Source: a virus
Strand: one strand, 5' to 3'
DNA length: 39,186 nt
Virus record (IMG/VR): IMGVR_UViG_3300021792_000237
Span: 1 to 39,186 of that record
The notes under the pieces were generated by a model. It ran no database searches and was not told where the DNA came from. It saw only the letters and a program-made list of their open reading frames with translations. Below are positions 13,916 through 38,125 of this stretch, piece by piece. Position numbers and translations under genes: made by a program. Within the stretch, counting starts at the first letter, position 1, and each line of letters starts with the position of its first letter.

Positions 13916-16177
13916 TTAAAGAACCAGCGCTTTAGTCGCACCACGGAAGTCAGTACACTGACCACCATAAATGTGGCGCATCTTCATTGTGGTTTGGTCG
14001 TTCGTGAACACAGTGCCCACGTTTTGCATGTCTTGCGTGAAAATCTCAGGGTTTTCCATGCCATCTAAAAAGCCCATTTCAAAGTTGGCAAGCTCACTAG
14101 GGTCGGTCATTAAGCCCCAGTCATTTGGATCAGTCGCACCAGGCACACGCAGAATTTCAAGGTTTAATTGCTGCGCAAAACCCTTGTCGTTATTTTGCAT
14201 GCGTTGGAACAAGTCAAAGGCTGCATCTACATTACCCAGCGAGCACAACAAGAACGCTGGCTCAATTTCTAGCATCTCGCCTGTATCAAGCTCTTGCTGA
14301 TTCATAATGGCGCGCCAATGCACCATTAACTCTTCCTGGCTTAGTGCATTACTAAACAAGTTGTTATGATCAGCATGAAACAGTGCTTTGCCATCTGGGG
14401 CATTGCGGTTGTTTAGGTAGAAGTCCCACGCAAACTTGCTAAGTGTGCGCGCAGCGGCACGAGCCAGCTTATTAGGAATTTGCGTAATGATGTTGCGGTC
14501 ATCATTTTTAATCATTTCCATAGTAATGGTTGCTAAACCACCTTTTTTGCTAACGCGATACTTCGCATTGCTATCGGTAGGTTTCGCAAGTTCTGGGTAA
14601 GCACCACTTTCAAGTACTTCTTGTAGGTCGCCATAGCCACCCCATTCAGTCACATTCTGATCTTTAAAATCAGTCGCAGTAGCCACACGGAATACTTTGC
14701 GCCATAGCTGGTACTTTTCTAAGCTGCCATACACTTCAACTACTCGGCGGTTTACAACATCGGCCAACACATTCGGTAAGCTATCGCTATCAAGCGCTTC
14801 GACCATTCGCGTACGGCTACAATCGCTTAAACGACCTGTACAGTGCTTATCACCCGTCAAATCAATGTAAGCTTCTTTTAAGCTCACTACGTCTTTATTA
14901 GCCGGATCAAATAGTGCGGTAAGCAGCTCTACACCGCTTGGGTTATCGGAGTATTGCGCACCTTCAGGCATGTTCACTTTGCCCGACTCAGTAAACTTAC
15001 TTAAATAGCTAATCTCACTATCAATTAGCTTTTGCACTTTATCAGTGCTTACGTCTTCGCAGCTTTGCACGCTTTCTACCAAGCGCGTTTTGGCGGCGTC
15101 TGGCAAAGTCGACTTATTAATTAACGCTACAGCACTTTGCTTTGCTTCAACCAAACGCTGGCTGTCTGCAATCACTTTGTTTACGTCTGCAAGTGTTAAA
15201 CCTGTACCTTGGCCTGCATCAGGGGCACCGTGTTTAGCCAGTGCTTCAGTTAATTGCACAATGGCTGTTTCATCATCTTCAGCTGTCACAGATGCTGCAA
15301 GCTGAGGGTTCGATTTTTTAAGCGCTTCGATTAGGCGCATTAGTTGTTCATTCATGACATTGCCTTGATTATGAGCTTCTTTAAATGACACGATCCGACC
15401 ACCTGCACCAGGTACCATGATCAAATCGACGGAATTAACTTTGAGGAACTTCTTAGCTGTGCGGCTGCCCTTTTTACCAGAGGCCGTACCGTCCACATCA
15501 ATACTTAAACCAAACAGGTCCTGCATATTGTTATCAACGGCTTCGCGCAATTTAGTGGCATAACCCGAGCTTTCAAGCACAGTTAAATCAGCCTGCAGTG
15601 CACCTTTTTTACCTGCACCAACACCTTCAACAAATTGTGCATTGCTGAACTGGCCAATCAGGTTATTAAAGTGTTGGGCAGTGCCTTTGATATGGTCGTC
15701 ATCAGACTTAACCATGCACTTAGCACCGTTAAACAAAGGGGCTGCTTCACGCAGAACGTGGGCTGGATAGTCAACACCATTTAAGCTTTTACCCACCTCA
15801 ATCAAGGTCACTAAAAACTTACTAGGTTTAACATTACTTGCTTCAATAAACTTAGTTTCGTCATACCAGGCTTCGGTTAACTTAACCACGTCAGAGGGCT
15901 TGTACTCTTTGACGACTTCAATAGCGTTTTCAAACGTCACCTGATTTAACTCACTCACCGCATAAGGGTATGCCCAGTAGCGGCCATCTTTACGAATAAC
16001 CACTTTGTCAGCATAAAAAGCAGTAATATCAACCCAGCTATCACGCGAGTTAGTTGCCAGCAACTTACGCAGCTCTGCAGTCACAAGCGTCATCACATCG
16101 TGATAATCAGATGATTTAGCCTCAACAAATGCGCGATTTCCTAAAAAGCCGGTTCCTGTTGGTAAAAGGGTCAACAT
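13916..16177 (-). CDS. Fused prohead protease - scaffold - major capsid protein
   Basis: 753 residues with three parts. Residues about 115-260 look like an HK97/U35-type prohead protease, with His162 in SDDDHIKG and Ser225 in LFGLSIDVDG. Residues about 275-400 are helical and charged, like a scaffold. From about residue 403 to the end is a Mu gpT-like capsid (QLWRKVFRVATATDFKDQNV, KYRVSKKGGLATITMEMI, LFHADHNNL). An internal ATG at 15355 (MNEQLMRL) has AAGG 7 nt upstream and may give a separate scaffold-capsid product. In Mu the protease (I), scaffold (Z) and capsid (T) are separate in part, so the fusion is notable. AGGGG precedes the main ATG. Confidence 0.8.
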   Translation of the reverse strand: MLTLLPTGTGFLGNRAFVEAKSSDYHDVMTLVTAELRKLLATNSRDSWVDITAFYADKVVIRKDGRYWAYPYAVSELNQVTFENAIEVVKEYKPSDVVKLTEAWYDETKFIEASNVKPSKFLVTLIEVGKSLNGVDYPAHVLREAAPLFNGAKCMVKSDDDHIKGTAQHFNNLIGQFSNAQFVEGVGAGKKGALQADLTVLESSGYATKLREAVDNNMQDLFGLSIDVDGTASGKKGSRTAKKFLKVNSVDLIMVPGAGGRIVSFKEAHNQGNVMNEQLMRLIEALKKSNPQLAASVTAEDDETAIVQLTEALAKHGAPDAGQGTGLTLADVNKVIADSQRLVEAKQSAVALINKSTLPDAAKTRLVESVQSCEDVSTDKVQKLIDSEISYLSKFTESGKVNMPEGAQYSDNPSGVELLTALFDPANKDVVSLKEAYIDLTGDKHCTGRLSDCSRTRMVEALDSDSLPNVLADVVNRRVVEVYGSLEKYQLWRKVFRVATATDFKDQNVTEWGGYGDLQEVLESGAYPELAKPTDSNAKYRVSKKGGLATITMEMIKNDDRNIITQIPNKLARAAARTLSKFAWDFYLNNRNAPDGKALFHADHNNLFSNALSQEELMVHWRAIMNQQELDTGEMLEIEPAFLLCSLGNVDAAFDLFQRMQNNDKGFAQQLNLEILRVPGATDPNDWGLMTDPSELANFEMGFLDGMENPEIFTQDMQNVGTVFTNDQTTMKMRHIYGGQCTDFRGATKALVL

Positions 16178-16188
16178 AATTTAGCCCC

Positions 16189-16698
16189 TTACTTAGCCGC
16201 AGCTTTAGCTGGCGCTTTTTTTGTTGCTGCAGCGTCTTTTTCAGCTTGCTCTAAAAGAGCTTTAGCTTCAGCTTTGGCCTTGGCAATAATAGCTTCTGCT
16301 TCATCAGTTGCAGCTTTTGCTTTTGCTGTCGCTTCTTGTTCTGCTTTGGCTAACAATGCTTTAGCAGCATCATCAGAGGCGTGTGCAAGCTCACTGGTAT
16401 TCTCACCATCACTGGCAAGTACCGCTTTAGCCAGGTCTGCTGTCGCAAGTACACCTTCAACACGTTGGCCTGCTTTAGTTAATGCTTTAACAACGCCTGT
16501 TTCGCGCTCAACTTTAAAGTCGAACACTTCATCTGGCTTAACTTGGCGGGTTTGTTTTTTGGTAAGCGTGTTGCCACGTTCATCGGTTTTAGGTTTATTG
16601 TCGTCGCCTAAGTCAACGACTTCTTCGTATAGCTCAAGCGCTTTAGATGCAATTTCTAAAACAGCGTGGCCTTTCGAAAGTAAAGCAAAAAGACTCAT
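16189..16698 (-). CDS. Ala/Lys-rich coiled-coil protein next to the capsid gene
   Basis: 169 residues. The first 80 are mixed (SLFALLSKGHAVLEIASKAL, KQTRQVKPDEVFDFKV), the rest is a long Ala/Lys/Glu helix (AEQEATAKAKAATDEAEAII and repeats). It ends in Lys-Ala-rich PAKAAAK. It lies directly upstream of the capsid fusion, 11 bp away, with a clear GAGGG ribosome site. It may be a head accessory or scaffold-like protein. I know no family. The repetitive C-terminus suggests DNA or capsid interior contact, which is speculation. Confidence 0.55.
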   Translation of the reverse strand: MSLFALLSKGHAVLEIASKALELYEEVVDLGDDNKPKTDERGNTLTKKQTRQVKPDEVFDFKVERETGVVKALTKAGQRVEGVLATADLAKAVLASDGENTSELAHASDDAAKALLAKAEQEATAKAKAATDEAEAIIAKAKAEAKALLEQAEKDAAATKKAPAKAAAK

Positions 16699-16761
16699 TA
16701 TGTTGCCCTCAATGGTTGTGAATATGGCTAATGAGTCTTTAAGGTAAGGGGTTTTGTTGAA

Positions 16762-16783
16762 GGGCTAAATTAAAGGGTTTTAG
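16762..16783 (-). repeat. 22-bp repeat, copy A (candidate late regulatory site)
   Basis: An exact 22-bp copy of the sequence at 23791-23812. Minus-strand read starts CTAAAACCCTTTAATTTAG, with CTAAA and TTTAG as dyad arms. It lies between the stop of the 101-aa gene (16789) and the start at 16698. See the finding. Confidence 0.6.
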
Positions 16784-16788
16784 GAAAA

Positions 16789-17094
16789 TTAAGTGAGTTC
16801 ATTTCCCCAGTCCATGGGTTTAACACCGCTTTTCTCGATTAAATCAGTAAGGTCGTTTTCAATATCGGGTATCAAAATAGGCTGATATTCATCAAACAAT
16901 GCATCGTCTTCATCTCTAAACGGGTCATCTAACTTTTCAATAATTTTTACATGGTATTGTTGAGGTTCACTTTCAAAGCGGGGTTCTTTCCACAAATACA
17001 GTAAATCGCTATGTTCATTTATAAGTGTTAGTAATGCCGCTGCCGAATCTTTATGTTTTAATACTTGTTGCCAAACGCTTTCTAATTGGTCCAT
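16789..17094 (-). CDS. 101-aa acidic protein of unknown function (probable moron)
   Basis: 101 residues, strongly acidic (EDDALFDEYQPILIPDIENDLTDLIEK). No membrane segment or signal peptide. It is inserted, together with the 78-aa membrane protein, between the gpF-like head gene and the Ala/Lys-rich head gene, where Mu-type phages have no such pair. The flanks hold a long inverted repeat (17108-17170) and the 22-bp repeat (16762-16783). ATG at 17094 lies behind a GAGTCC...AAAA leader with only a weak ribosome site. I do not recognise it. A cargo role is inferred from the flanks. Confidence 0.55.
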   Translation of the reverse strand: MDQLESVWQQVLKHKDSAAALLTLINEHSDLLYLWKEPRFESEPQQYHVKIIEKLDDPFRDEDDALFDEYQPILIPDIENDLTDLIEKSGVKPMDWGNELT

Positions 17095-17107
17095 TTTTAA
17101 CGAGTCC

Positions 17108-17170
17108 TTATGATGGCTAATTCAAAATAATAAAAGTCCCTTTAAAATAATAACGACCTTGCCATCATAA
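17108..17170. repeat. Long inverted repeat between two small cargo genes
   Basis: TTATGATGGC (17108-17117) and GCCATCATAA (17161-17170) are perfect 10-bp inverted arms around a 43-bp spacer. The spacer contains two copies of AAAATAATA. It fills the intergenic gap between the 78-aa and the 101-aa genes. It may be a hairpin, operator or small mobile remnant; nothing shows which. Confidence 0.6.
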
Positions 17171-17181
17171 TTACACATGTA

Positions 17182-17418
17182 TTAACTATTTTTTGACGAA
17201 TCCACCCAATCAATTTCAGGTATCACTTTTTTTACTTCAGCTAGGTAAATATACATGGCGCATAGAGGCCATAACAAAGCCCATATGAATACCTTTTTAA
17301 CGAAATATCTTGGAATGCATTCATTTTTTCTCACACATTCTTCTGCGGCCACTAACCAACCAGCAAGAGAAAAACCAAACCCTATAAATAAATACGCATA
17401 TAAAATTAATAGTGTCAT
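17182..17418 (-). CDS. 78-aa membrane protein, probable moron
   Basis: 78 residues with two likely membrane segments: about 3-22 (LLILYAYLFIGFGFSLAGWL) and about 46-62 (KVFIWALLWPLCAMYIYLA). A Cys-containing charged loop (EECVRKNECIPR) lies between them. The C-terminus is acidic. It follows the gpF-like gene by 9 bp with AGGAG in front of its ATG. Small phage membrane proteins often act in superinfection exclusion or as holins; position in the head module speaks against holin. Function unknown. Confidence 0.6.
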   Translation of the reverse strand: MTLLILYAYLFIGFGFSLAGWLVAAEECVRKNECIPRYFVKKVFIWALLWPLCAMYIYLAEVKKVIPEIDWVDSSKNS

Positions 17419-17427
17419 TTCTATCTC

Positions 17428-18267
17428 CTAAGTTTTTACTGTCAGATTCGGATCAACTTCCCAGTGCTTCATCACGGGCACCGTAAAGCAGCTACAATTG
17501 ACTGTTTCTTTTGCTGGCGCTTTGGGGTCATGAGGGTGCATCATCTTAATGCCCCCAATAGTAAAAGGTTCATTTGCAGCAGCGCGAGTATTGTTTGCGG
17601 CCAAGTGACTAACGCGGTGTTCTTTACGCCGACCTAAACGCCACTCTTTTTCCATGCCTGGTACTGCATCACCAATTTCGTTCATGCGCATATGGCTTGC
17701 TGTGTTATACAAGCGGCTAAGCTCAGTGTTTACAATCGCCTTAGCGCGCCACATTTTTTTCTCGCCTAAACTTTCTGCTATGGCTTTTTTAGCAGTTTCG
17801 CTATCTTGCGCCCCCATCATCACAAGACCAAGTTGCGATCGAATATAATCAGCCTTCCCGCTTAATACATCTTTAATTCGGTCAACCATAAAATTATCAA
17901 TGGCCACAAGCTGACGATGCTGTAAAAGCTGCGTCATAGCATTTACCGTTACACCACCGGCTTTAAGTGGCGCATCTATTAAATTAATGCCAGCCACCCA
18001 AGTAGTTTGTGAAAAAGCTTTAATTTGTGCAGCGCTTCGCTCACCCAGTTCAAGCATCACCTGGTTAATTTGCCCCTGCAACTTGCCATAGTGCCATTGC
18101 TGCCAATCTGTCGGCTGTCCTTGTAATATGGTTTGCGTGTTTTCTTCAGCAAGCTCAAGCAAACGCAACAGCGAATCCCAAAGCCCCTGCTTATTTTTAA
18201 GTAGCGCTTTAAGCTGTGCTGTACGGGCTTTATTAAAGGCCTTGGTGCGTTCACTCGGTGTCATCAT
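17428..18267 (-). CDS. Head morphogenesis protein, Mu gpF-like (SPP1 gp7 family)
   Basis: 279 residues. The C-terminal part has the Mu gpF/SPP1 gp7 pattern: KAIVNTELSRLYNTA, EKEWRLGRRKEHRVSHLAAN, IGGIKMMHPHDPKAP and the closing VNCSCFTVPV. These minor head proteins associate with the portal and enter the head (family knowledge). It starts inside the 3' end of the portal gene (17-bp overlap), as expected of a portal partner. The length is shorter than Mu gpF (about 420 residues). Confidence 0.85.
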   Translation of the reverse strand: MMTPSERTKAFNKARTAQLKALLKNKQGLWDSLLRLLELAEENTQTILQGQPTDWQQWHYGKLQGQINQVMLELGERSAAQIKAFSQTTWVAGINLIDAPLKAGGVTVNAMTQLLQHRQLVAIDNFMVDRIKDVLSGKADYIRSQLGLVMMGAQDSETAKKAIAESLGEKKMWRAKAIVNTELSRLYNTASHMRMNEIGDAVPGMEKEWRLGRRKEHRVSHLAANNTRAAANEPFTIGGIKMMHPHDPKAPAKETVNCSCFTVPVMKHWEVDPNLTVKT

Positions 18268-19774
18268 CTAAGCCTGCATCATCTGCGCCATCAAACTCGT
18301 TAAAGGTGTCGGCCTTTACCTGGTCTTTCGCTTTTTGGGCAATAGCAGCTTGCGCGTTTATAAGCTCTTGCTCAGGGTCAATCTCAACACCTAATCGGTC
18401 CGCAATTGATGCAATCACACTTAACCCCGTTTCTTCGGTCATAATGCCCTGCGTAATCCCTAGGTTTACCGCTACCACAACTTGCTGCAGTGCAGCAGCA
18501 TAGCGGCTTATATCTTTAGCGGTCATTTCTGGCATCACCACCTTTGACTTAAACACATCAGTTTCAACCATGCGGTCAGGCTCAATGCCCATGGTTGCTG
18601 TGTAGTACTGGCGAATAACAAAGGTCGCTATTTCGTGCAGCATATAAATAATGTAGCGCTGGCGCATAGCAAGTATTTTAAATGTCGGCTCGGCCATGGC
18701 TTCACCGTTCGCACGGTTAACATCCCCCCCATCAGCAAACCAACTTGGTGGCATAGTCGCACCACCAAGCATGTGGTTTCTAAATAATTTGGCTAAGGCT
18801 TCGGTGTCGCCAGAGCCTAGGCTGGGGCTTTCTGCTTTCCACTCTTCTGAATCGTTATGCACATTTGCTGAGCCTGGTCTTGGCGGGTTGCTTTCAATTT
18901 CTGCAGCTCGGGCATTTACTTTATTTTGGTCAGCGCCTTTTAAAGTAACATCCCACACAAACGCCCGGGAGTTTTCGGCACGATCGCCTTCACCAAAAAT
19001 AAAGTCGTCGTATAAATCTAAAAAATCACACTGCGCAGTTAAATCAGAGTTGCCCCGTCCGTGGGCGCAAAAGCTGTTAATTGAAAAATAAAAAATATCG
19101 CCATCATTAAACCCTTCACGTAATCGTTGTGTTTGTTTGGTAAACACCGACTCTGGGCCATTGATGATCACTCTATAAATGTATTGTCGGCCATTTGTCA
19201 TACGCTTGGTTTTTACACCAACCGGCTGCTCTGGATTGCGCGGGTCGTAAATAACTTCCTCAACATGTGCAGGGTCTAGGTAACTTAATTGCACTTCGCC
19301 ACTAAGCGGATTAACAAAAGCAGGGTAAAACTGCTCGCCAAATATCGACAGCTCACGCACTTTCTTTTCAAGCTTAATAGCCATGTTATTAATTGGGTGC
19401 GTCCAAAATGCATCGATGACGGCTTGATAGTCTTCATCCTCGTTCGTGACTTTTACGCCTTCCGCCAATAAATACGCGAGCGGTAACTCAATAATGCGGT
19501 TAGCAATCATGTTACTTTGCCAAAGGTAAGGCGCTATTTTGTTCATGCGTGCGCGTGTTGGCCCACTTAAGTTACGATTAGAATCACCAGAGAGCTTTGA
19601 ATATAAGTGGTCATCAGCATCAATTGAGCCAACCATAGCACCTGCTGCTTCTTTAAATGTGGTAGCTGATTCATTTGCAGCAGTGTTGCTTGCAATTGTT
19701 TCAGTAACAATTGCAGCAATTTTTGCTGCAAATTCTGCCTCTTGTTTTGCCTTGCGCTTTTTTGAACCAAACAT
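18251..19774 (-). CDS. Portal protein
   Basis: 507 residues. It follows the large terminase and precedes gpF, the Mu gp29 slot. The basic N-terminus (FGSKKRKAKQ) is followed by a portal-type core: RMNKIAPYLWQSNMIANRII, KKVRELSIFGEQFYPAF, SYLDPAHVEEVIYDP and GGATMPPSWFADGGDVNRANGEAM near residues 345-370. The C-terminal tail is very acidic (GADDAGLDDDTE). The portal ring is the DNA gate of the head and docks the terminase. The 134-bp gap upstream holds no gene. Confidence 0.85.
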   Translation of the reverse strand: MFGSKKRKAKQEAEFAAKIAAIVTETIASNTAANESATTFKEAAGAMVGSIDADDHLYSKLSGDSNRNLSGPTRARMNKIAPYLWQSNMIANRIIELPLAYLLAEGVKVTNEDEDYQAVIDAFWTHPINNMAIKLEKKVRELSIFGEQFYPAFVNPLSGEVQLSYLDPAHVEEVIYDPRNPEQPVGVKTKRMTNGRQYIYRVIINGPESVFTKQTQRLREGFNDGDIFYFSINSFCAHGRGNSDLTAQCDFLDLYDDFIFGEGDRAENSRAFVWDVTLKGADQNKVNARAAEIESNPPRPGSANVHNDSEEWKAESPSLGSGDTEALAKLFRNHMLGGATMPPSWFADGGDVNRANGEAMAEPTFKILAMRQRYIIYMLHEIATFVIRQYYTATMGIEPDRMVETDVFKSKVVMPEMTAKDISRYAAALQQVVVAVNLGITQGIMTEETGLSVIASIADRLGVEIDPEQELINAQAAIAQKAKDQVKADTFNEFDGADDAGLDDDTE

Positions 19775-19908
19775 AGCTTTTTAACCCTTTTGTAAATCTT
19801 TTACATTTGCCTAGGCGGCGCTAAATAAAATTTTCCGTGCAATGGCACTCAAAACACATTGCAAACGCTTAAAATCGCTCTGAGAGCGTCACCCTTAGTT
19901 TTTGATTT
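19775..19908 (-). other. Intergenic gap with hairpins between terminase and portal
   Basis: The largest gap in the head module. It contains a CGCTC-TGA-GAGCG hairpin (19876-19888), followed on the minus strand by ATTTTAA, so it may be a weak terminator after the terminase. A second arm pair, GCAATG and CATTGC, lies nearby. A promoter for the portal operon could lie here, but I see no clear boxes. Confidence 0.35.
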
Positions 19909-21600
19909 TTACCCAGACTTATCTGTTAGCACTTGGCCACTTTCATTTATGGTTCGATAGTTGAAGTCATCGCCACCTAAACTAATCCAAGCAAGTTGCT
20001 CATTTCTAAAGTTGCCAATAAATATCCATTCAGAGCCGTTAAAGTACTGAAGTGTTACTTTCTTAGTTGGAGCCAAATAGCCAATTGCTCGTCTAAACAA
20101 ACCGCCTGCACGTGTTCGGCCTTGCAGGCGAGATGGTCGGGTATTCATTGAGTTTTCAGCTTTGGGCACATTGACACCTGCAGCTGGCTCGCCCTCTTCC
20201 AAAGTCGCTGCATTTACAAGTACACCCGCAACGGCAGTATCGCCGTGTCGCCATTTACCATCACTGCCTTTGTCTCGGCCGTCATCCATTTTTGGCTGGC
20301 CTTTATCTAAAATAACGCGCCGATGATCAGCCACTACATCTTCACTCTCAGGCACGGTAATTAATTTGCTCTCGAGCGCAGCTTTATATTTAGGGAAAAA
20401 TTGGTTGTACCAAGGCCGCGATAACATCACGCAATCAATTCGGCTTTCGCCATAACGTTGCATAGCTTTTTCTGCCAACGATTGGCCATTACCTCGGCTA
20501 TCAAATTTGCCGTGAAAAAACAGCGGAACATTATCGAGCAGGTAAAAGGTAATTTGCTCTTGGCAATCAAACGGAATGTTTCTTAACTCAATTAAAAATG
20601 GCGTGTGGTATTTAGTAGGGCTTTCTTGCTGCATAAGCCATTGCACACTTAAGTCACCGCTTCGGCCAAAGTCTTGCCCGAACACAGTTCGTTTACCTGG
20701 CATGGCATCAATTAACGGTTTAATTGTGTCTTTCAGCCAATCATCAATTATGCGAGTACGCTCAGGGTTCGTAACAAAATCATCAGGCTTTTCTAAGCGA
20801 ACGACTTTGCTATCTGGGTGCTGGCAACGTTCAACCAGCATACGGTTAATGTAAACACCACCGCCTGCACTTGGGATCACATCAAGTTCTTCTGCCGCAC
20901 CATCACCATAAAAGTCGTATATTTCTTGCGCCCAGGCATCTTCTTTTTCTTGAGTCCACTCTAGGCCCTTCATGGCACAAATGCGTTTATACAAGCCTTG
21001 GCTTAGCGCTTCTCTAAATGTTGTGCGGTAAACCTTGTATGGTTTTTTCCCTGCGCGACATTCTTTAATAAGTAAATTAAATGGGTTTTCTTCACCATCA
21101 TGGGTGCTGATAATGCGCACCTTACCGCCCCAAATTAACAGGGCAAAAGCGGCTTTAATAAGTTCATCTAAATTATCGTGGAATGCAGCTTCATCAAGTA
21201 TCACGCGGCCTTGTTTACCACGTAAGTTTGATGGCCGAGAACTCAGCGCAATAATTCGAAAGCCACTAGCAAAGCGAATTACATAAGTAAGAATATCCTT
21301 ACCTTCATCAGTAATAATCTCTTCGCTTACGTCATCACACACTTCGTTAAAGCTTTTAGCCCAGTTCGCACAGTCACGAATAAACTCTTCGGCCATATCT
21401 TTGTTATAACCGATGTACCAGCAATCCATGCCGCCAGCTGCTTTACTTGCCGCAGCATCAAGTACACTCGCTGCAGCCTCGCCCCAACTTAAACCTATAC
21501 GGCGCGACTTTTCATAAATGATAACGGGCGACTGGTCCCAAACATATTCCGCCTGGTACGGTAATAAGATCGACGTTAACTCTTGTGTGTCCATTGCCAT
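19909..21600 (-). CDS. Terminase large subunit (Mu gp28-like)
   Basis: 563 residues. ATPase: Walker A-like EKSRRIGLSWG (30-40), Walker B GRVILDEAAF with Asp136-Glu137, and coupling motif ISTHDG near 164-169. Nuclease: FGQDFGRSGDLSVQWL with Asp310, and later acidic residues. It cuts and packages DNA from integrated copies by headful, as in Mu (family knowledge). The start overlaps the small terminase stop (TAATG). The last 75 residues are a small beta-rich tail (VTLQYFNGSEWIFIGNFRNE). All key residues look intact. Confidence 0.92.
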   Translation of the reverse strand: MAMDTQELTSILLPYQAEYVWDQSPVIIYEKSRRIGLSWGEAAASVLDAAASKAAGGMDCWYIGYNKDMAEEFIRDCANWAKSFNEVCDDVSEEIITDEGKDILTYVIRFASGFRIIALSSRPSNLRGKQGRVILDEAAFHDNLDELIKAAFALLIWGGKVRIISTHDGEENPFNLLIKECRAGKKPYKVYRTTFREALSQGLYKRICAMKGLEWTQEKEDAWAQEIYDFYGDGAAEELDVIPSAGGGVYINRMLVERCQHPDSKVVRLEKPDDFVTNPERTRIIDDWLKDTIKPLIDAMPGKRTVFGQDFGRSGDLSVQWLMQQESPTKYHTPFLIELRNIPFDCQEQITFYLLDNVPLFFHGKFDSRGNGQSLAEKAMQRYGESRIDCVMLSRPWYNQFFPKYKAALESKLITVPESEDVVADHRRVILDKGQPKMDDGRDKGSDGKWRHGDTAVAGVLVNAATLEEGEPAAGVNVPKAENSMNTRPSRLQGRTRAGGLFRRAIGYLAPTKKVTLQYFNGSEWIFIGNFRNEQLAWISLGGDDFNYRTINESGQVLTDKSG

Positions 21601-22175
21601 TACAAACGATCCCCAGCAATGGCTCGGCGTATTAAATCAATATTGCCAGAGCTTAAACCTGCCGTTTTAGCCGCACTTTCTGCTTGCTCTTGTGCCTCGG
21701 CTAACGCTTGTTTTCGGGCTTTCTCAGCAATTTGTTTTTCTAAGTCAGCGTTATAGTTTGCACTGCGTTGCAACCGGCTAATACTTAAAACCAAATCACC
21801 AAGCGTTTCAGGATCAATCGGATCTTCTTGGCTCATTAAATTAGAGGTCGTTTTAAATGCAGCGCTTTGCAACAGGTTCATTAACACTCGGCCAGTATCA
21901 CCAATACTCGATAAATCGCATTGTTTGGATAGCGCCTCAACATAAGCCTGGCTTTGTTTAATATCGTGGCTAATTTGTTCAATACGCTTTTTCTCACGCC
22001 AAACCGTATTGTCATCAATTGACTCAACATCGGTTTGCTCACCACTTATGTTTGCCAGTTCGTCGTTAATCGCATCGGCAATTTGCTGGCAAGTGTATTG
22101 CTTAGTGCCTAGCATCTCGCGCAAGTTTTCACGTATATGCTCAGGTAAGCGCTCAATCTTATTGCCGCGTGCCAT
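21600..22175 (-). CDS. Terminase small subunit, DUF3486 (Mu gp27-like)
   Basis: 191 residues from ATG 22175 (MARGNKIERLPEHIRENLREML). An upstream Met at 22310 would add 45 residues inside the gp26-like gene. The N-terminus matches DUF3486: a basic start, LPEHIRENL, then a helix-turn-helix-like part (TCQQIADAIND). The centre holds long helices (HDIKQSQAYVEALSKQ) and a Glu/Ala-rich C-terminus. It recognises DNA for packaging in Mu-type phages. The gp26-like stop lies 1 bp upstream. Confidence 0.82.
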   Translation of the reverse strand: MARGNKIERLPEHIRENLREMLGTKQYTCQQIADAINDELANISGEQTDVESIDDNTVWREKKRIEQISHDIKQSQAYVEALSKQCDLSSIGDTGRVLMNLLQSAAFKTTSNLMSQEDPIDPETLGDLVLSISRLQRSANYNADLEKQIAEKARKQALAEAQEQAESAAKTAGLSSGNIDLIRRAIAGDRL

Positions 22176-22176
22176 G

Positions 22177-22473
22177 TTAGTTGCCTCCTGGTGCTGGGCG
22201 CTTAACACCGTCAACCGACTTACGGCCAGTAGCAACATCAGCGCCTTGCTCAGTAATCCGTGCAACCAAGGTTTTATCACCCACCACATCAATAGTGAGC
22301 AAACCCACATCTTCTAAAAAGCGCATATGGGCACGCACTCTATCGCGGCTAATATTGTGGCCATAGGTTGCTAATACACAGCTCAACATACTGCAGTTAG
22401 CGCTATAGCCTGCCGCCTCGTTTAAGGCGCGCAAAATAACTAAACGCTGATCAGCATCAAATAGGTCTTTCAT
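22177..22473 (-). CDS. Mu gp26-like winged-helix protein
   Basis: 98 residues from ATG 22473 (MKDLFDADQR). A longer reading from 22512 is in the 56-aa gene's region and lacks a start signal. The sequence looks like a winged helix: RLVILRALNEAAGYSANCSM, ISRDRVRAHMRFLEDVGLL, TLVARITEQGADVATGR. In Mu this slot holds gp26, of unknown role. The ArsR-like end is common in Mu-type prophages just before DUF3486. Function inferred as a DNA-binding packaging or late factor. Confidence 0.65.
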   Translation of the reverse strand: MKDLFDADQRLVILRALNEAAGYSANCSMLSCVLATYGHNISRDRVRAHMRFLEDVGLLTIDVVGDKTLVARITEQGADVATGRKSVDGVKRPAPGGN

Positions 22474-22627
22474 TGTCCTCACCCTTAAAAAAGCGCTCAT
22501 AAATAAACGCAATAAAAAACTGGCCTAACGAATAGCCAACTCGAAAACACACGTACATGAAGAAAAAGAACCCAGCGATTAACAGGCAAAGTACAAACCA
22601 CAGCTCTAGTTCATGTTCATTTGGCAT
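22457..22627 (-). CDS. Small 56-aa membrane protein in the lysis/packaging region
   Basis: Reads MPNEHELELW, one long membrane segment (FVLCLLIAGFFFFMYVCF, about 11-28), then GYSLGQFFIAFIYERFFKGE. The ATG overlaps the DUF2730 stop (TAATG) and its 3' end overlaps the gp26-like ATG. Overlaps on both sides and a consistent frame make it real. It could be a holin-type or lysis accessory protein; that is an inference from size, membrane segment and closeness to the endolysin. Confidence 0.65.
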   Translation of the reverse strand: MPNEHELELWFVLCLLIAGFFFFMYVCFRVGYSLGQFFIAFIYERFFKGEDNERPI

Positions 22628-22980
22628 TACTGTTTACCTGAGAATTTTGATTCAACAATCAAATTAAGTGGATGCTCAATGCGTTTTAAAAGATCATGTA
22701 AATGGTTATTTTCACTCTGTAACTTGGCGACTTCTTTACTTAACGCACTAACATTTTGAGGTAAGTCTTTAACCTCAACTTCGATGCGTTGCACAGCCGC
22801 TTTGACTTCAGTAAAATCTTCATTCTTCACATACGTTTGCTCTACCGTTTGCAATCGCTTGTCTTGTGCAGACACATCATCTTTGCTAGCAAATGACTTT
22901 TTAAGTGCATACACCACCACGAAAAACACCAATAAAACTACACCTTGCACCCACGGGTACCACTTTACATATTCATCCAC
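22627..22980 (-). CDS. DUF2730 protein (Mu gp25-like), membrane-anchored coiled coil
   Basis: 117 residues from GTG 22980 (read as MDEYVKWYPWVQG). AGGAG lies 8 nt upstream, and the GTG overlaps the end of the preceding gene. A reading from 23043 would lack a ribosome site. Membrane segment about 10-30 (VVLLVFFVVVYALKKSF), then a coiled coil (VKAAVQRIEVEVKDLPQNVSALSKEVAKLQSEN). This layout is that of DUF2730 in Mu gp25. Its role is unknown. Its anchor and coiled coil also suit a spanin-like or holin-like part in lysis, but this is not established. Confidence 0.75.
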   Translation of the reverse strand: MDEYVKWYPWVQGVVLLVFFVVVYALKKSFASKDDVSAQDKRLQTVEQTYVKNEDFTEVKAAVQRIEVEVKDLPQNVSALSKEVAKLQSENNHLHDLLKRIEHPLNLIVESKFSGKQ

Positions 22981-23194
22981 GGGGATTACTCCTATTTGTT
23001 TTTGCTGTATTTGCAATGCGGGCTTCGGCTTCAAGGCGAACACCGCTAATTGAGTGCCAGCCTTTTAAAAATGCATTAACTAAAGTGGGGTCGCCCACAG
23101 GGCAAATGCTTTGTGGGTCTGGGTTGGTACCATTTTGGTAGGTGCTAATTCGCATGGCTCGGCCACGCTTAACGTATTCAGGGTAACTTTTCAT
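22973..23194 (-). CDS. 73-aa protein downstream of the endolysin, unknown
   Basis: 73 residues: MKSYPEYVKRGRAMRISTYQNGTNPDPQSICPVGDPTLVNAFLKGWHS and so on to NRSNPRG (not one continuous motif). Its start overlaps the endolysin stop by 4 bp (ATGA), and its stop overlaps the DUF2730 GTG. It holds no membrane segment. In Mu the slot is gp23/gp24, but I see no spanin-like signal or lipobox. Function unknown. Confidence 0.6.
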   Translation of the reverse strand: MKSYPEYVKRGRAMRISTYQNGTNPDPQSICPVGDPTLVNAFLKGWHSISGVRLEAEARIANTAKTNRSNPRG

Positions 23195-23763
23195 GCTGCC
23201 TCACTCATTTTAAGTTCACGAATAACGCGCTCGATGCGGTTTTCAAGCTTAAATAAGCGGCGATGCCAGCCAAATAAAAAAGCAATTTGGCTAGGATCAT
23301 TAACTACAATACGGCTGTATTTGCTGGCGCGGCGTGCAAAGTAGTCAACCATTAGGTTAGTTTGATTTGCGTTAATGGCTGCAGCAAAGGTGCGTGAACC
23401 TAATATGCCATCAACCTTTACTCGCAATACTTGCTGCAAAAGCATATTGGCCAGTGGCACGCCATGGTTAATAGCTGAATCTAGATGCAACATGGCTAAT
23501 TCATACAAACCATACTCAGCCAGTTCTTTAGCACGGCTACCGCGCCAAAAATCACGATGGTAAATGCGCATGGCTTGATGCCATGTCAAATTAGCTATAT
23601 CAACATTCGGGTAAGCAGCTTGGCTAATGCCATACCGCGTTCGCCCACCTTTGTCGGCGCTATGATCAGAGTCGCCTCCTTCTGCCTCATATATCCAGTC
23701 CATGCAAAATAAAAATGCACGGCTGTAATTCGGGGTAAGGTCGGCAAAGTTTTGTGTTTTCAT
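23191..23763 (-). CDS. Endolysin, GH108 family (Mu gp22 position)
   Basis: 190 residues. The N-terminal GH108 domain has YEAEGG with catalytic Glu28, then DHSADKGGRTRYGIS and TWHQAMRIYHRDFW. A C-terminal peptidoglycan-binding domain follows (QQVLRVKVDGILGSRTFAAAI). It hydrolyses peptidoglycan for lysis. No signal peptide is visible, so it needs a holin. It is the first gene of the late lysis/packaging run, as in Mu. Its ATG has no Shine-Dalgarno and lies at the edge of a strong hairpin. The 60-bp gap upstream has copy B of the 22-bp repeat. Confidence 0.88.
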   Translation of the reverse strand: MKTQNFADLTPNYSRAFLFCMDWIYEAEGGDSDHSADKGGRTRYGISQAAYPNVDIANLTWHQAMRIYHRDFWRGSRAKELAEYGLYELAMLHLDSAINHGVPLANMLLQQVLRVKVDGILGSRTFAAAINANQTNLMVDYFARRASKYSRIVVNDPSQIAFLFGWHRRLFKLENRIERVIRELKMSEAA

Positions 23764-23782
23764 AGCGCCAGTGTGGCGCTAT
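23762..23782 (-). promoter_or_regulatory. Hairpin enclosing the endolysin start codon
   Basis: ATAGCGCCA (minus, 23782-23774), loop CAC, then TGGCGCTAT (23770-23762): a perfect 9-bp stem. The last AT of the 3' arm are the first two bases of the endolysin ATG (23763-23761). No Shine-Dalgarno is visible upstream. It could restrict lysis gene translation until unfolded. Confidence 0.65.
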
Positions 23783-23790
23783 TTACTGAG

Positions 23791-23812
23791 GGGCTAAATT
23801 AAAGGGTTTTAG
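23791..23812 (-). repeat. 22-bp repeat, copy B (candidate late regulatory site)
   Basis: Identical to 16762-16783. It lies 12 bp after the RES-gene stop (23825) and 27 bp before the endolysin ATG. The minus strand has CTAAA and TTTAG arms separated by 9 bp. Confidence 0.6.
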
Positions 23813-23824
23813 TAAAAAATGGAG

Positions 23825-24640
23825 TTACCAAAGAATGTTGCCATTTTCTGTAAAGCCCTTACTGCTTTTTATTATGTCAAAATCAAAGATACCGTAGGAA
23901 AAAACTCTTTTGACTTTTATCAAGGCTGTTTGATCGCATTTCATTAATTCGTCAGCCTTGGCCGCAGGCAGAGCAATATTGTAACTACCTAGATCCGCAA
24001 TACTATGATAAACAATTCCATCGGGATTATTCAAATTATGCATCAATAGTTTTGTAAGTATTCTTGAATGAATATATTTTGTCTCCGAAGCATTAGGCAT
24101 TCTTAAAATCTCATCAAAAAACAGATCAGGGTATAAAAAGCAATGAATATGGGATTTACCTTTTTTCTCTAAATCATTCAATATTTCCCTTACATAACCT
24201 ATTAAGTCTTGCATGAAGCTGACATTGCCTTTTGTCACCCTTTGATATTCGCCAAGGATAATAGCTCTTGGAAGTCGATGCTTAGGTAAGAATCCACTTA
24301 GCTGTACTAAATCACCTTCCTTAGCTTTAATTTCAGCTAAAGCGGTATATGGTGTAAAACTAAGGTATAAAAAAGGAGAGCCAACCTCATTGACTCTCCC
24401 TTCTTTAACTAAATTTTTTGGAGGGTATGTTAGCTCACTAACATTAGAAAAAGGCTTTCCATTCTCAATTACTCTAGCTCTAAAATAAGGACGTGAGTAC
24501 TGGCATTCAAAGCTAATAACATCATAGGTCTCAATAATTTTTTTAAGCCCCTCTTCAATGAATTTTGGATCATTGCTACGCTTAATCTGATTAGCTAAAT
24601 CTTCAATCTGATCCAATGGCATTAAAAACTTTATCGTCAA
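23825..24640 (-). CDS. RES-domain protein (NAD-consuming toxin family), standalone
   Basis: 271 residues from TTG 24640 with AAGGAG 8 nt upstream. The RES core is clear: CQYSRPYFRARV (46-57), EGRVNEVGSPFLYLSFTPYT ALAEI (80-104), with Arg82, Tyr92 and Glu103 at the positions of the conserved Arg, Tyr and Glu. RES toxins degrade NAD+ and are usually paired with an Xre-type antitoxin (DUF2384), as in RES-Xre systems. No such gene is adjacent, and the protein is longer than a typical RES toxin (about 150-230 residues). It begins 17 bp after the sensor gene, whose stop precedes its ribosome site by 7 nt, so they share an operon. An anti-phage or growth-arrest cargo is plausible. Confidence 0.75.
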   Translation of the reverse strand: MTIKFLMPLDQIEDLANQIKRSNDPKFIEEGLKKIIETYDVISFECQYSRPYFRARVIENGKPFSNVSELTYPPKNLVKEGRVNEVGSPFLYLSFTPYTALAEIKAKEGDLVQLSGFLPKHRLPRAIILGEYQRVTKGNVSFMQDLIGYVREILNDLEKKGKSHIHCFLYPDLFFDEILRMPNASETKYIHSRILTKLLMHNLNNPDGIVYHSIADLGSYNIALPAAKADELMKCDQTALIKVKRVFSYGIFDFDIIKSSKGFTENGNILW

Positions 24641-24657: not shown

Positions 24658-27351
24658 TTAACTGACACAACTTGACGAATTTACCTTTGACTGTGTCTGT
24701 TTTAATTTCATTCCAAACTTCAACTGCACAACGGTACCATTTTTAATACCTCGGTCAATGCGAAGTTTACCGCCTAACGAACGGGCAATATCGTGCATCG
24801 ATTCAAGGCCGGTACCAAAGCGCATAAACTTATCAAAAAAGGCAATTCCTTTACCATCATCTTGTATGGTGATCACAAATTCATCTTTGCTTCGCTTACC
24901 ACTCACTTCAATGTAACGCGCCTCAGCATGTTGCAACGCATTAATAAAAGCATGATTAATAAACGCGTAAATGTCTTGGCTTAGCTTCTCAGGTAAAGCT
25001 TTGCTTCCAAGCGCTAAATTAAACTCAACCTCTGTTTGGCTATATTGCAGTGATGTATTGGCCGAGAGCATCTTAAGGCCATCTTCAAGCGAGGTATTGC
25101 CCAGCGCTCCATGGCTGTACACAACAGGTAATAAAATATCTTTCGCTTCGTCCAGCTGCAGCAGGCCATCGCTTAACTGCAAGTCATTGCCTTGGCATAA
25201 ATGCGAACCCGACACCAATTTTCTAAAGCCCTGACTTAATGCAGTTTGTTGCTTGGTATCACGCATACGTCTAAATACTTCACGCATTTGCTTATGGCGT
25301 TGCAAAAACACAAAAAATACAGCAGCAAACAATAACACCACTAGCACAGCACACACCCACGCAAAGGCATCGCTTTTATAAAAAGAACCTTGAACATTCC
25401 AAACTATGGGAGCGCTTTTAACAAAGTGGCTACCATCTAACGTAGCTCTTACAACTAAGCTATGTTCACCCTCGTTTAACTGGCTAAAGTGAACTACTGG
25501 CTCGTTTAGGTTTATCCAGGCACCGCCATTGTGGCTATATTGATAGTCGTAATATTGAGTAAGTGCATAGTCAAAATTGCTAAAGTGCAACGTCATTTGG
25601 CTAGCTTGTTGTACATCATTTAATGCATTTAAGCTGGCATCATTCACACTCATTAACGACACCAAAACAGGCTTATCGTTTTGCAAGTTCGTATTGCTCA
25701 AACCTAATAACCCATTGTTCGACACCGCATACATAGCGCCGTTATAAGCCATTAAACTATTAGCGCCAAAGTATTGTTTTTCAGTATGAGGAATGGCTAC
25801 AACCGTTTCATCCACCAGCGTAAATAAACCGTTTGTAGTTGCAATGTACAAGCTGCCATTGAACACCGCTAAGTCAGTAATGAACCGAGGGCTTACTAAC
25901 AATTTAAACCCGTTATTGGTTTGCTTATACAGGCCACCACCATAAGCGGCTACATAAACGCTATTATCAAGCATCGTCACTTTACTTACTTTGCCTGCTT
26001 GAGTTGTAAGGCTGTGGCTCATATTACCCGTTTTAACGTTGTACACACTCAAACCTTTGCTAGTACTTATATACAGTAAGTGCTCAAACTTATTGGTTGC
26101 CAGTACTTCATTAGCAGCAAGGCCGCTTTCAACATTCAGTACTTTTTCAATGACCAAGTTATCATCAATCACTATCACGCCTTGGCCACTGGTAGACACA
26201 AGCCAACAGCCAGCAATTTTTTCAATACCTAAAATATAACCATTCGCTAACTGGCTTAACTGCTCGTTTTGCCACACATATAAACCATTTGTAGTGCCAA
26301 CAAGCGTTACTTTATCACTGGCAATACTGGTAATTTCGTTGCTTTGTTCTTGGCTAAGCGCGTTATTTAACGCGTCCATTGCCACGAACTGGCGCTGCAC
26401 AAAGCGATAAACACCCGAATCGGTGCCCATTAATAAACTCTGATTATCTTTACCTAGCACGTTGTATCGACTTACCAGTGGCAGGTTAAACTGATTCAAA
26501 TCTTGAGAAATAATCTCGTATTCATTATCAGCTACAGCCCAAAGGTTTGATTGTGAGTCCGCATAAACACTATTAAAAAACAGCTTACTTTTATTCAAAA
26601 CACCCGATACAAATTGTTTATCGAGCGTTGAATACAAACGCACTTCACCCGCCATAGCCATCGCTAAGTAACTATTTTTGTAAATGGTCATAGCGCTAGG
26701 GGTGGTGTTAAGTGAGGTTTTATGAACTTGTTCTGTGATGAGGTCGTAACTATAAAGCGTTTGTTCGTGGGCTATATATAATCTATCGCCAACAGCGGCA
26801 ATTAACCCTGAATGTATGGGCATTTTTATCAGCTGACGCTGATGGTTTAAATTCAAATGCCAAAGCCCTGTATTGGTTAGTGCGTATACTTGGCCATCGT
26901 GCGATAGCACCTTTAACACAGTTTGCCCAACCAGCGCTTGCAGGTTCCCAGCGCTTTTTTTGCTTAACACCTCAACCCCTTTAGAGGTAGCGGCGTAAAC
27001 ATGCTGGCCATTTACAGCCATATCTTTACTGGTTACTTCGGCAAATTGCTTAACATTGCCTGTTAAAACATCGTAAGCATAAATATGACCATTACTTGCA
27101 GCATACAACATGCTTTTATCTGCATTCGTTGTAAGTGCATATACCCACTGTGCTGGCAGCGCCTCAATTAATGCAAAGTGATAACCATCATATTTATACA
27201 AACCTTCATGGCTAGCAAAATACATAAAGCCATTCTTGCCCTGTACCACTTCAGTCATGTTGTTAGGTGTACTATGCGCACTTGCCCCTGTTGAAAATAG
27301 GCAAAGCACAATGAAAAGTAATCCACCGTATAAACGTGCTTTAACAGACAT
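24658..27351 (-). CDS. Transmembrane sensor with two-component propeller, Y_Y_Y and HATPase domains
   Basis: 897 residues from ATG 27351. Signal peptide ARLYGGLLFIVLCLFSTGASA, a long beta-propeller-type sensor (about 30-570, repeats ending GLY/GLW/GVY), a Y_Y_Y-like domain (about 585-655), one membrane segment (AWVCAVLVVLLFAAVFFVF, about 664-682) and a C-terminal HATPase. The N-box is HAFINALQHA (about 800-809), G1 is DDGKG (831-835) and G2 is GTGLESM (846-852). It should sense a periplasmic signal and signal inward. No normal H-box (E-x-x-R...LHD) is seen in the dimerisation segment (690-785), so it may not be a standard histidine kinase. No response regulator gene is near. An ATG-extended start (27396) would read an Arg-rich palindrome, and TTG at 27357 is a possible alternative. 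Confidence 0.8.
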   Translation of the reverse strand: MSVKARLYGGLLFIVLCLFSTGASAHSTPNNMTEVVQGKNGFMYFASHEGLYKYDGYHFALIEALPAQWVYALTTNADKSMLYAASNGHIYAYDVLTGNVKQFAEVTSKDMAVNGQHVYAATSKGVEVLSKKSAGNLQALVGQTVLKVLSHDGQVYALTNTGLWHLNLNHQRQLIKMPIHSGLIAAVGDRLYIAHEQTLYSYDLITEQVHKTSLNTTPSAMTIYKNSYLAMAMAGEVRLYSTLDKQFVSGVLNKSKLFFNSVYADSQSNLWAVADNEYEIISQDLNQFNLPLVSRYNVLGKDNQSLLMGTDSGVYRFVQRQFVAMDALNNALSQEQSNEITSIASDKVTLVGTTNGLYVWQNEQLSQLANGYILGIEKIAGCWLVSTSGQGVIVIDDNLVIEKVLNVESGLAANEVLATNKFEHLLYISTSKGLSVYNVKTGNMSHSLTTQAGKVSKVTMLDNSVYVAAYGGGLYKQTNNGFKLLVSPRFITDLAVFNGSLYIATTNGLFTLVDETVVAIPHTEKQYFGANSLMAYNGAMYAVSNNGLLGLSNTNLQNDKPVLVSLMSVNDASLNALNDVQQASQMTLHFSNFDYALTQYYDYQYSHNGGAWINLNEPVVHFSQLNEGEHSLVVRATLDGSHFVKSAPIVWNVQGSFYKSDAFAWVCAVLVVLLFAAVFFVFLQRHKQMREVFRRMRDTKQQTALSQGFRKLVSGSHLCQGNDLQLSDGLLQLDEAKDILLPVVYSHGALGNTSLEDGLKMLSANTSLQYSQTEVEFNLALGSKALPEKLSQDIYAFINHAFINALQHAEARYIEVSGKRSKDEFVITIQDDGKGIAFFDKFMRFGTGLESMHDIARSLGGKLRIDRGIKNGTVVQLKFGMKLKQTQSKVNSSSCVS

Positions 27352-27374
27352 AATCAATGCCCCTCTCCTTGGTC

Positions 27375-27394
27375 GGCGCAGCTTAAGCCGCGCC
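27375..27394 (-). promoter_or_regulatory. 20-bp near-perfect palindrome in the sensor gene leader
   Basis: Minus strand GGCGCGGCTTAAGCTGCGCC: arms GGCGC/GCGCC and GCTTAAGC in the centre, with one mismatch pair. It lies between the stop of the secreted-protein gene and AGGAGAGGGG before the sensor start. It is not followed by T, so it is not a terminator. A regulator-binding site or an mRNA hairpin is likely. Confidence 0.5.
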
Positions 27395-27419
27395 ATTTAT
27401 TATTATAAGAGCCTAATTA

Positions 27420-27923
27420 TTAATATTGTACGTGGTTGCGCGTACCACAGAACGACTCAACCGTTGCCTGGTAATCGGGGGTTGCATCGTCACTACTCAC
27501 ACTTTGAGCATCAAGTGTTCGCGCTTGTAACAAGCTTGTTTTAGCCGTTGCTGGTTTTTCCCAATTAATATTTTGGTTGGGTTTAACAATAAGAAAGGTC
27601 GGTTTACGCGGGTCATCAGGGTGTTTTTTTGTGTACCACTGTTGCATCACAAATTCACCGGCTTCCTGTCCGTACATATGCGTGTATGCAGCAGCTAAAA
27701 GCTGAGCGCCACGCTCGTTTGTAATAATCATCCCTGTTGACTCAAACGCTGAGCCACAATCAAAGTTCATATCTACACTTAAGCTACTGCTGTCTGGCAA
27801 CAGTAGCTGAGCTTGCATAGATGAAACACGCGCTCTATCAGGCAAAGGCTCCAAAGCCTGAGTCGCACTCGTAAAGGTAAAAGCGGCTAATGTTAGGGCT
27901 GAAAGTACAATACTTTTTAACAT
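27420..27923 (-). CDS. Secreted protein of the lysogeny operon, unknown family
   Basis: 167 residues from ATG 27923 (MLKSIVLSALTLAAFTFTSA), with GGAG 9 nt upstream; an in-frame ATG at 27938 is less likely. The signal peptide ends near ATQA. Mature part: DRARVSSMQAQLLLPDSS, NFDCGSAFEST and a C-terminal ESFCGTRN, so two cysteines could form a disulfide bond. It lies 15 bp after the repressor stop and before the sensor gene, and is probably co-transcribed with both. A periplasmic partner or ligand-sensor for the propeller domain is my inference; I know no family. Confidence 0.7.
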   Translation of the reverse strand: MLKSIVLSALTLAAFTFTSATQALEPLPDRARVSSMQAQLLLPDSSSLSVDMNFDCGSAFESTGMIITNERGAQLLAAAYTHMYGQEAGEFVMQQWYTKKHPDDPRKPTFLIVKPNQNINWEKPATAKTSLLQARTLDAQSVSSDDATPDYQATVESFCGTRNHVQY

Positions 27924-27938
27924 TGGGTAAAACTCCAT

Positions 27939-28397
27939 TTATGCCAACGTTAGCGCCCCCTTTGCCATAGTTTCAACAAGTGGTTCGCAAAAATCATTTT
28001 CAAAGCAGGCCTTTATTAACACTGGGCGTAACTTGTTGGCCACTGTTAATAATCTATCCGCTGGCAAATTTCTACTATACAACTCCCGTTCTAATATCTT
28101 TTCGACCATATCTAATGCTCGCAAAGCATCATCACTTGTGGGGGCTGCGGCTTTTTGTTTTGTTGAGTCTGCGCTCTTTCCATAAATTAACTCATCTACC
28201 GAGTAACCATATTGAACATACGTCTCAACAATATGGTTAAAAGGCAAATTACCAGAGCGACGACTCGCACTGATACCAGAAGGCGACAAGCCAATCTTAA
28301 TGGACAGTTGCCGATCACTTCCTTCGGTGCCTAATTTTTTATGCAACCTAGAAATAATCGCATCAAATTCAACACGGTTAACTTTATCTGAAATCAT
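27939..28397 (-). CDS. Prophage repressor, CI-type helix-turn-helix, no peptidase domain
   Basis: 152 residues. The DNA-binding part is about 7-60: FDAIISRLHKKLGTEGSDRQ, LSIKIGLSPSGISASRRSGN and YGYSVDELIYG, as in the phage CI repressor HTH family (PF07022). The rest is a helical oligomerisation-like region (DALRALDMVEKILERELY). There is no S24 Ser/Lys peptidase, so RecA-type self-cleavage is not expected, in contrast to lambda. It is divergent from the early regulator gene, over the operator region, and starts the minus-strand operon with the secreted protein, sensor and RES genes. AGG lies 5 nt before its ATG. Confidence 0.8.
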   Translation of the reverse strand: MISDKVNRVEFDAIISRLHKKLGTEGSDRQLSIKIGLSPSGISASRRSGNLPFNHIVETYVQYGYSVDELIYGKSADSTKQKAAAPTSDDALRALDMVEKILERELYSRNLPADRLLTVANKLRPVLIKACFENDFCEPLVETMAKGALTLA

Positions 28398-37786: not shown

Positions 37787-38125
37787 ATGAGTGGCAAAGC
37801 GCAAACAGCTGAAACTCTATTAGTACTCCTTGACTCGATAGAACGTAAGCTTTTAGAGAATAAAGTCGATGAAGAACAAGCTACAAAATTGGCAACGTTA
37901 ATAGTCGATGACTTTCGCCACCAGTGTGGTGGTATGAGTGTTTATATCCCTAAAGGTGTTGGGCTTGATGCCATACTTAAGCACAACCAAATTTACCAAG
38001 ACTTTCGCGGTAATAATCACACAGAGCTTGCTAAGAAATATGGATATTCTGAACAACGCATCTATCAAATTGTTCGGGCCATACATGCAGCTGAATCCAA
38101 GCGCATACAACCTGAGCTGTTCTAA
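37787..38125 (+). CDS. mor: Mor-family late transcription activator
   Basis: 112 residues. The C-terminal helix-turn-helix: LAKKYGYSEQRIYQIVRAIH (about 83-102), and the N-terminal dimerisation part (LVLLDSIERKLLENKVDEEQ). GVGLDAILKHNQIYQDFRGN is the family's middle motif. Mor (and the related C) activates the middle/late promoters in Mu; here only one such gene is present, so it should act on late promoters itself. Last gene of the early operon, followed 10 bp later by a terminator. Size fits Mu Mor (129 residues). Confidence 0.85.
   Translation: MSGKAQTAETLLVLLDSIERKLLENKVDEEQATKLATLIVDDFRHQCGGMSVYIPKGVGLDAILKHNQIYQDFRGNNHTELAKKYGYSEQRIYQIVRAIHAAESKRIQPELF

Follow-up and report, generated by a model that had tools for sequence, protein, structure and literature searches.

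Candidate Mor-activated late promoters nested in start-site hairpins at the lysis and head genes of a Mu-like phage

In the Mu-like phage of IMG/VR virus record IMGVR_UViG_3300021792_000237 (the window analyzed here is the entire 39,186-nucleotide stretch, positions 1 to 39,186), the 22-bp sequence GGGCTAAATTAAAGGGTTTTAG is present exactly at 16762-16783 and again at 23791-23812; as read on the minus strand, the coding strand in this region, it is CTAAAACCCTTTAATTTAGCCC. Copy 1 lies ahead of the head operon (the I site) and copy 2 ahead of the endolysin gene (the lys site). The repeat is very probably the box of a Mor/C-type transcriptional activator, and the hairpin that lies over each of the two downstream gene starts is probably a functional gate that depends on the origin of the transcript. 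The combined explanation, that these are Mor-activated late promoters nested in start-site hairpins, is the one that we favor, with reasonable confidence.

What is proposed is that the two boxes, as Mor-family activator sites, would constitute the upstream halves of sigma70-type late promoters lacking a -35 element and equivalent to Plys and PI of phage Mu. An activator dimer bound near -42 would bring RNA polymerase to a weak -10 element whose first base is 37 bp past that of the box, and each promoter would be nested in a hairpin over the start codon or Shine-Dalgarno sequence of the first late gene. RNA arriving from upstream (from the repressor-cargo run into lys, and from the cargo and late operon into I) would contain both arms of the hairpin and be shut (in some relatives the shut read-through stems would be terminator-like as well). 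RNA initiated at the activated promoter would start within the 5' arm or just where that arm ends, would be unable to close the full hairpin, and would be translated. Lysis and capsid genes would thus stay silent before synthesis of the activator, and cargo would be tolerated directly upstream of them without a terminator.

The identity of the two copies, and the judgment that an exact 22-bp repeat is not expected by chance, were already part of an original prediction made from the sequence, and both stand. No further match, and in particular no third copy that might be the equivalent of Mu PP or Pmom, is found in the window at up to 3 mismatches, and no such pair occurs in 100 dinucleotide shuffles; a chance origin is rejected on these grounds. 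Likeness between the copies reaches ~36 bp at 89%. Just upstream of copy 1 is a T-rich, UP-element-like tract (16784-16791), where partial conservation ends and unrelated cargo begins; a T-rich tract also adjoins copy 2 on its upstream side (23813-23820). The CTAAA...TTTAG dyad arms of the original prediction are present in the window, but were probably assigned in the wrong register: relatives have CTAAA...TTTAA or TTAAA...TTTAA instead, so that the outer bases vary, and the outer dyad (CTAAA and TTTAG separated by 9 nucleotides), which matches 44 times where 38 matches are expected (2 mismatches allowed), was rejected. The better dyad is YTAAA-ACCC-TTTAA on the minus strand (YTAAA-N4-TTTAA, 16770-16783 in copy 1); the palindrome TCTTTAAAGCGCTTTAAAA of Pasteurella phage AFS-2018a favors this inner dyad over the outer one.

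Each copy follows cargo and precedes a core late gene, as originally noted. Copy 1 precedes an Ala/Lys-rich open reading frame (ORF) of 169 residues (16189-16698), the first gene of the head operon, and copy 2 precedes the endolysin gene (23191-23763; GH108/PG_binding_3, phrog_315). A 19-mer of the box is found in IMG/VR phages and in Rheinheimera and Alishewanella prophages, and a third subgroup was recovered by a 17-mer search. Records covering both loci have exactly two copies, ~7 kb apart, preceding lys (or the gene in the lysis position) and the I head-protease operon, whatever the cargo upstream. Between subgroups the box is identical over 17-18 bp and differs at its outer bases at most, while Mor proteins are 46-49% identical, transposases ~55%, and flanking phage proteins down to ~45-55%. 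(A one-mismatch box search of 297 genomes of the family of one relative, G013, yielded mostly background.) The proposed ligand of the box is the Mor/C-family late activator encoded on the plus strand at 37787-38125 (PF08765, E 2.5e-27; phrog_532). The subgroups of the window share an S-x-x-x-[IV]-YQ helix together with a TTAAA box; the Mu-like phages HS6 and MuM16-1 share a recognition-helix motif TERRI together with a CCCGAAAC box.

The best sigma70-like -10 element common to six types of site occupies positions 38-43, counting the first base of the box as 1 (TACCTT, CACACT and TAAGCT are examples). Of the 40 offsets, position 38 scores highest, with a mean of 2.7 against a null of -0.48 (standard deviation 0.57), a value reached in 0 of 1000 shuffles; restricting the comparison to four mutually unrelated flanks leaves P at 0.0025. 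Downstream of the box just two columns are invariant, A39 and T43, the -11 and -7 bases of a weak -10 of the form YANNYT. In the window the predicted -10 elements are TACCTT at 16741-16746 (I site, predicted +1 at 16734) and CACACT at 23770-23775 (lys site, predicted +1 at 23763). A sigma70-like pair of hexamers is absent at both sites; that is, there is no -35 element. With the start predicted at position 50 (49 nucleotides past the first base of the box), the YTAAA-N4-TTTAA dyad is centered at -42.5; Mor binds two 5-bp inverted repeats centered at -43.5 at Mu Pm (PMC4390567). Location ahead of lys and I, a Mor/C gene, an inverted repeat near -43 and a -10 without a -35 element are features of a Mu-type late promoter that are found here. 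The original proposal of an activator-bound late promoter is well supported by the lys and I positions, the Mor-family gene, conservation of the box, the fixed offset of the -10 and the Pm-like geometry.

The start-codon hairpins are a new observation, missed in the original prediction. At the I site the 5' arm, AAAGACTCATTA, spans 16729-16740 and the 3' arm, TAATGAGTCTTT, spans 16689-16700, holding the start codon of the 169-residue gene and followed by a T-run. At the lys site the 5' arm, ATAGCGCCA, is at 23774-23782 and the 3' arm, TGGCGCTAT, at 23762-23770, covering the lys start codon. At 12 of 12 family sites the first late gene has its start codon or Shine-Dalgarno sequence covered by a hairpin; the stems are unrelated between site types, and the predicted +1 falls in the 5' arm or at its end. 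At these 12 sites, the minimum free energy of read-through RNA is -12.8 to -24.9 kcal, that of RNA starting at position 50 being 0 to -9.4. Read-through folding gives z scores of -3.6 to -5.3 at six representative sites, compared with ~0 for most RNAs starting at +1. Occlusion of the start site places the two gated genes first and second among 44 in the window; the predicted change of transcript origin lowers it from 14.2 to 0.1 kcal at lys and from 16.5 to 7.7 kcal at I. Since the predicted lys +1 is the A of the ATG, the late lys message may be leaderless.

The arrangement of genes upstream of lys is one in which such a gate would be useful. A probable repressor gene (27939-28397; judged by its sequence and position, with an N-terminus of DNA-binding appearance, and divergent from the early genes) is the first of a same-strand run toward lys that continues, with no large gaps, through a 172-residue ORF (27420-27938), a beta-propeller/histidine-kinase-ATPase gene (24658-27396) and a RES-domain gene (23825-24640), whose stop codon is 12 nucleotides ahead of copy 2. 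A terminator scan finds none between the RES gene and lys, and none between cargo and I. One would therefore expect read-through into the lysis and capsid genes, a problem that a gate keyed to the origin of the transcript would solve.

Other Mu-like phages have comparable sites. At lys and I, each of HS6, MuM16-1 and D3112 carries a repeated box of its own, built around an AACC-like core; the distance from core to best -10 is 34 nucleotides in HS6, MuM16-1 and at AFS-2018a lys, 35 in D3112 and 33 in the window. Strong gates are found at MuM16-1 lys, HS6 I, AFS-2018a lys and ZX4290 lys, and moderate ones at HS6 lys and MuM16-1 I. A search for exact repeats (at least 14 bp) shared by the lys and I regions yielded nothing useful in G011, B3 or ZX4290. 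For the lys and I genes of eight phages (chosen by the analyst, with weak cases included) the mean normalized occlusion rank is 0.15, which was reached in 0 of 100000 draws. In Mu itself, with the experimentally mapped Plys and PI starts placed from 92-mers (20 nucleotides from the oligonucleotide end; PMC4461284), the 5' arm of a stem formed by CTGCCATCA and TGATGGCGG ends at the lys start, and folding changes from -13.9 to -1.5; the I start lies within CTGCTCAC, opposite TGAGCAG, and folding changes from -14.7 to -1.5. No prior account of a gate at Mu late promoters came up in a literature search that did not extend to the original mapping work, where an earlier mention is possible.

AFS-2018a also has TCTTTAAAGCGCTTTAAAA twice before tail genes, with variants before lys and I. 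These two Mor-type palindromes, at 22248 and 28200, precede two tail/baseplate operons and are probably extra late promoters. In D3112 the annotated starts rank low, while ATGs adjacent to the hairpins (at 10749 and 19793, differing from the annotated starts) give 15.8 and 11.6 kcal; these ATGs open an unannotated 115-residue ORF and a 57-residue frame with a Mu-I-like N-terminus (possibly a frameshift).

A number of observations weigh against promoters gated by hairpins. The -10 elements are weak. Late I RNA is still able to form a remnant of six pairs, which costs 7.7 kcal to open, and translation of a leaderless lys message may be inefficient. Covariation is modest, double-change pairs numbering two in one set of stems and one in the other. 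Among Mu relatives the Mu stems are invariant, and Mu lys reaches a z score of only -1.1 in one window of folding. The D3112 hairpin is weak, short and no better than those of shuffled sequences, and there is no gate at the annotated starts of B3.

The lack of a strong gate in D3112 and B3 is what would be expected if these were plain Mor-activated late promoters whose hairpins gate nothing, being incidental or a by-product of the symmetry of promoter DNA; box, -10 and geometry do suffice for a promoter. This reading is nonetheless unlikely, because hairpins of unrelated sequence occupy the same place at all family sites, with the read-through z scores given above, because the gate recurs in HS6, MuM16-1, AFS-2018a, ZX4290 and Mu, and because stems are enriched near I in the wider capsid family (a strict stem at 16 of 104 starts near I and at 30 of 502 elsewhere, P 0.002). 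The T-runs that follow stems in MuM16-1 (T7 and T6), in AFS-2018a (T6) and at the I site of the window suggest a different role, in which the stems would mainly be intrinsic terminators of upstream RNA, disabled in promoter-born RNA, rather than locks on start codons. That proposal is about equally doubtful: the lys stem of the window and the group-2 stems have no T-run, and their 3' arms hold the AUG or the Shine-Dalgarno sequence.

Recombination scars of cargo insertion were the alternative offered with the original prediction, together with a comparison of cargo-free relatives as a check; a target used for such insertion is a related reading. Cargo does vary between phages, and there is a homology edge ~8 bp upstream of the box: between phages with different cargo, identity is 0.30-0.34 upstream, 0.78-0.82 in the 8 bp before the box and 1.00 within it. 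An edge of this sharpness is also what a promoter under constraint would produce. Copy number is always two, at two fixed loci; no copy flanks the cargo at its other end, and the I locus of one relative, G008, has no cargo and retains the box 34 nucleotides from the match to the MuF gene. A scar or an insertion target is thus very improbable; the constancy of two copies and the cargo-free G008 locus indicate, at the level of sequence comparison, that the box is a core element of this Mu-like phage family that bounds cargo. That the box acts as RNA, as a processing site or a terminator, and not as a DNA site is scarcely credible: the box does lie in transcribed intergenic DNA, but no Rfam family is matched in the region, the box offers only a weak 5-bp A/T stem, and what is conserved is primary sequence, with a -10 at fixed distance.

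The cargo and the remaining neighbors of the two boxes can be described briefly (the window genes named here are all on the minus strand). Upstream of copy 1 are a 101-residue ORF (16789-17094), its stop codon 5 nucleotides ahead of the box, and a 78-residue ORF (17182-17418), apparently a membrane protein, neither with a family match; the core gene upstream of this cargo encodes a MuF-like head morphogenesis protein (17428-18267). In five relatives (G003, G006, G007, G013 and G014) the cargo gene ends inside the box, which contains its stop codon. I-locus cargo in G001, G002, G007, G009 and G014 belongs to a family of proteins of ~297 residues that are alike in their membrane/coiled-coil N-terminal halves and have swapped C-termini; it looks like a modular lysogenic-conversion or defense gene. 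Within the window, no PADLOC defense family is found in cargo. The pair formed by the propeller/kinase and RES genes adjoins the repressor in some relatives too. Downstream of the 169-residue gene, a single 753-residue ORF (13916-16177; phrog_29592, phrog_4523, PF25209) joins the head maturation protease to the major capsid protein. Near the left end, 539-573 and 662-696 are near-identical copies of a 35-bp repeat, GTTGGGTTTCGCT.CGCT.TACCCAACCTACCTGG, palindromic in look (REP/BIME-like); the sequence at this end may be partly host DNA, or may contain an end repeat.

A more general proposition, which we regard as evenly balanced, is that Mu-like transposable phages, Mu included, share the gate: late promoters would lie inside a start-codon (or terminator) hairpin, lysis and capsid genes would be expressed only from late-promoter RNA, and the spots just upstream would be safe harbors for anti-CRISPR, lysogenic-conversion and other cargo genes that are freely exchanged. 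If true, this would explain how Mu-like prophages can transcribe repressor and cargo straight toward a lysis gene without dying, and why cargo, for example anti-CRISPR genes, collects at one exact spot before the head protease; it would also add a translational layer to the much-studied Mu late promoters. The combination of a repeated box, a -10 ~34 nucleotides from an AACC core and a hairpin might serve for finding late promoters in uncharacterized Mu-like phages.

The Pseudomonas Mu-like phages D3112 and JBD30, like the window, have cargo between the neck gene and the head protease, just before the I promoter, and in Pseudomonas phages late genes downstream reportedly suffer interference when acr is strongly transcribed (PMC9410906). 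In contrast with that accessory (anti-CRISPR) locus, cargo in the window has no known defense match, and the D3112 hairpin is only short. The same slot, occupied by window cargo and by AcrF2 in D3112, holds reverse-transcriptase cargo with regulators in MuM16-1 (20281-21970, between neck gene and head protease).

The C-activated promoters Plys and PI of Mu, and its Mor-activated Pm, resemble the window in activator family and in lacking a -35 element, and the late promoters predicted in the window occupy the same two gene positions as Plys and PI. Their -10 elements (TAGACT and CTGACT, as read here from the mapped promoters) are weak, as are TACCTT and CACACT; the dyad center at Pm is 1 bp from that predicted in the window; and both have the hairpin, its 5' arm ending at a mapped start in Mu and placed relative to a predicted one in the window. 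Mu differs in its box sequence, in having Mor plus C where one Mor-family gene is found in the window, and in its predicted upstream terminators; the window differs in its two identical boxes, with no equivalent of the P or mom promoter found, and in having cargo directly upstream.

A functional precedent is gene e (lysozyme) of phage T4, and also soc, 49 and I-TevI: the start of the lysis gene is hidden in read-through RNA, while late RNA, whose 5' end lies within the 5' arm, is translated (PMC3014915). The late promoters of T4 depend on the gp55 sigma factor, whereas those proposed here would be of sigma70 type, activator-dependent, and would serve capsid as well as lysis genes, and there is no shared sequence. 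The start hairpin in read-through RNA is present in the window, and if the predicted +1 is used, late RNA would start within the 5' arm of that hairpin or where this arm ends; as in T4 gene e, the start of a lysis gene would be hidden in RNA that arrives from upstream.

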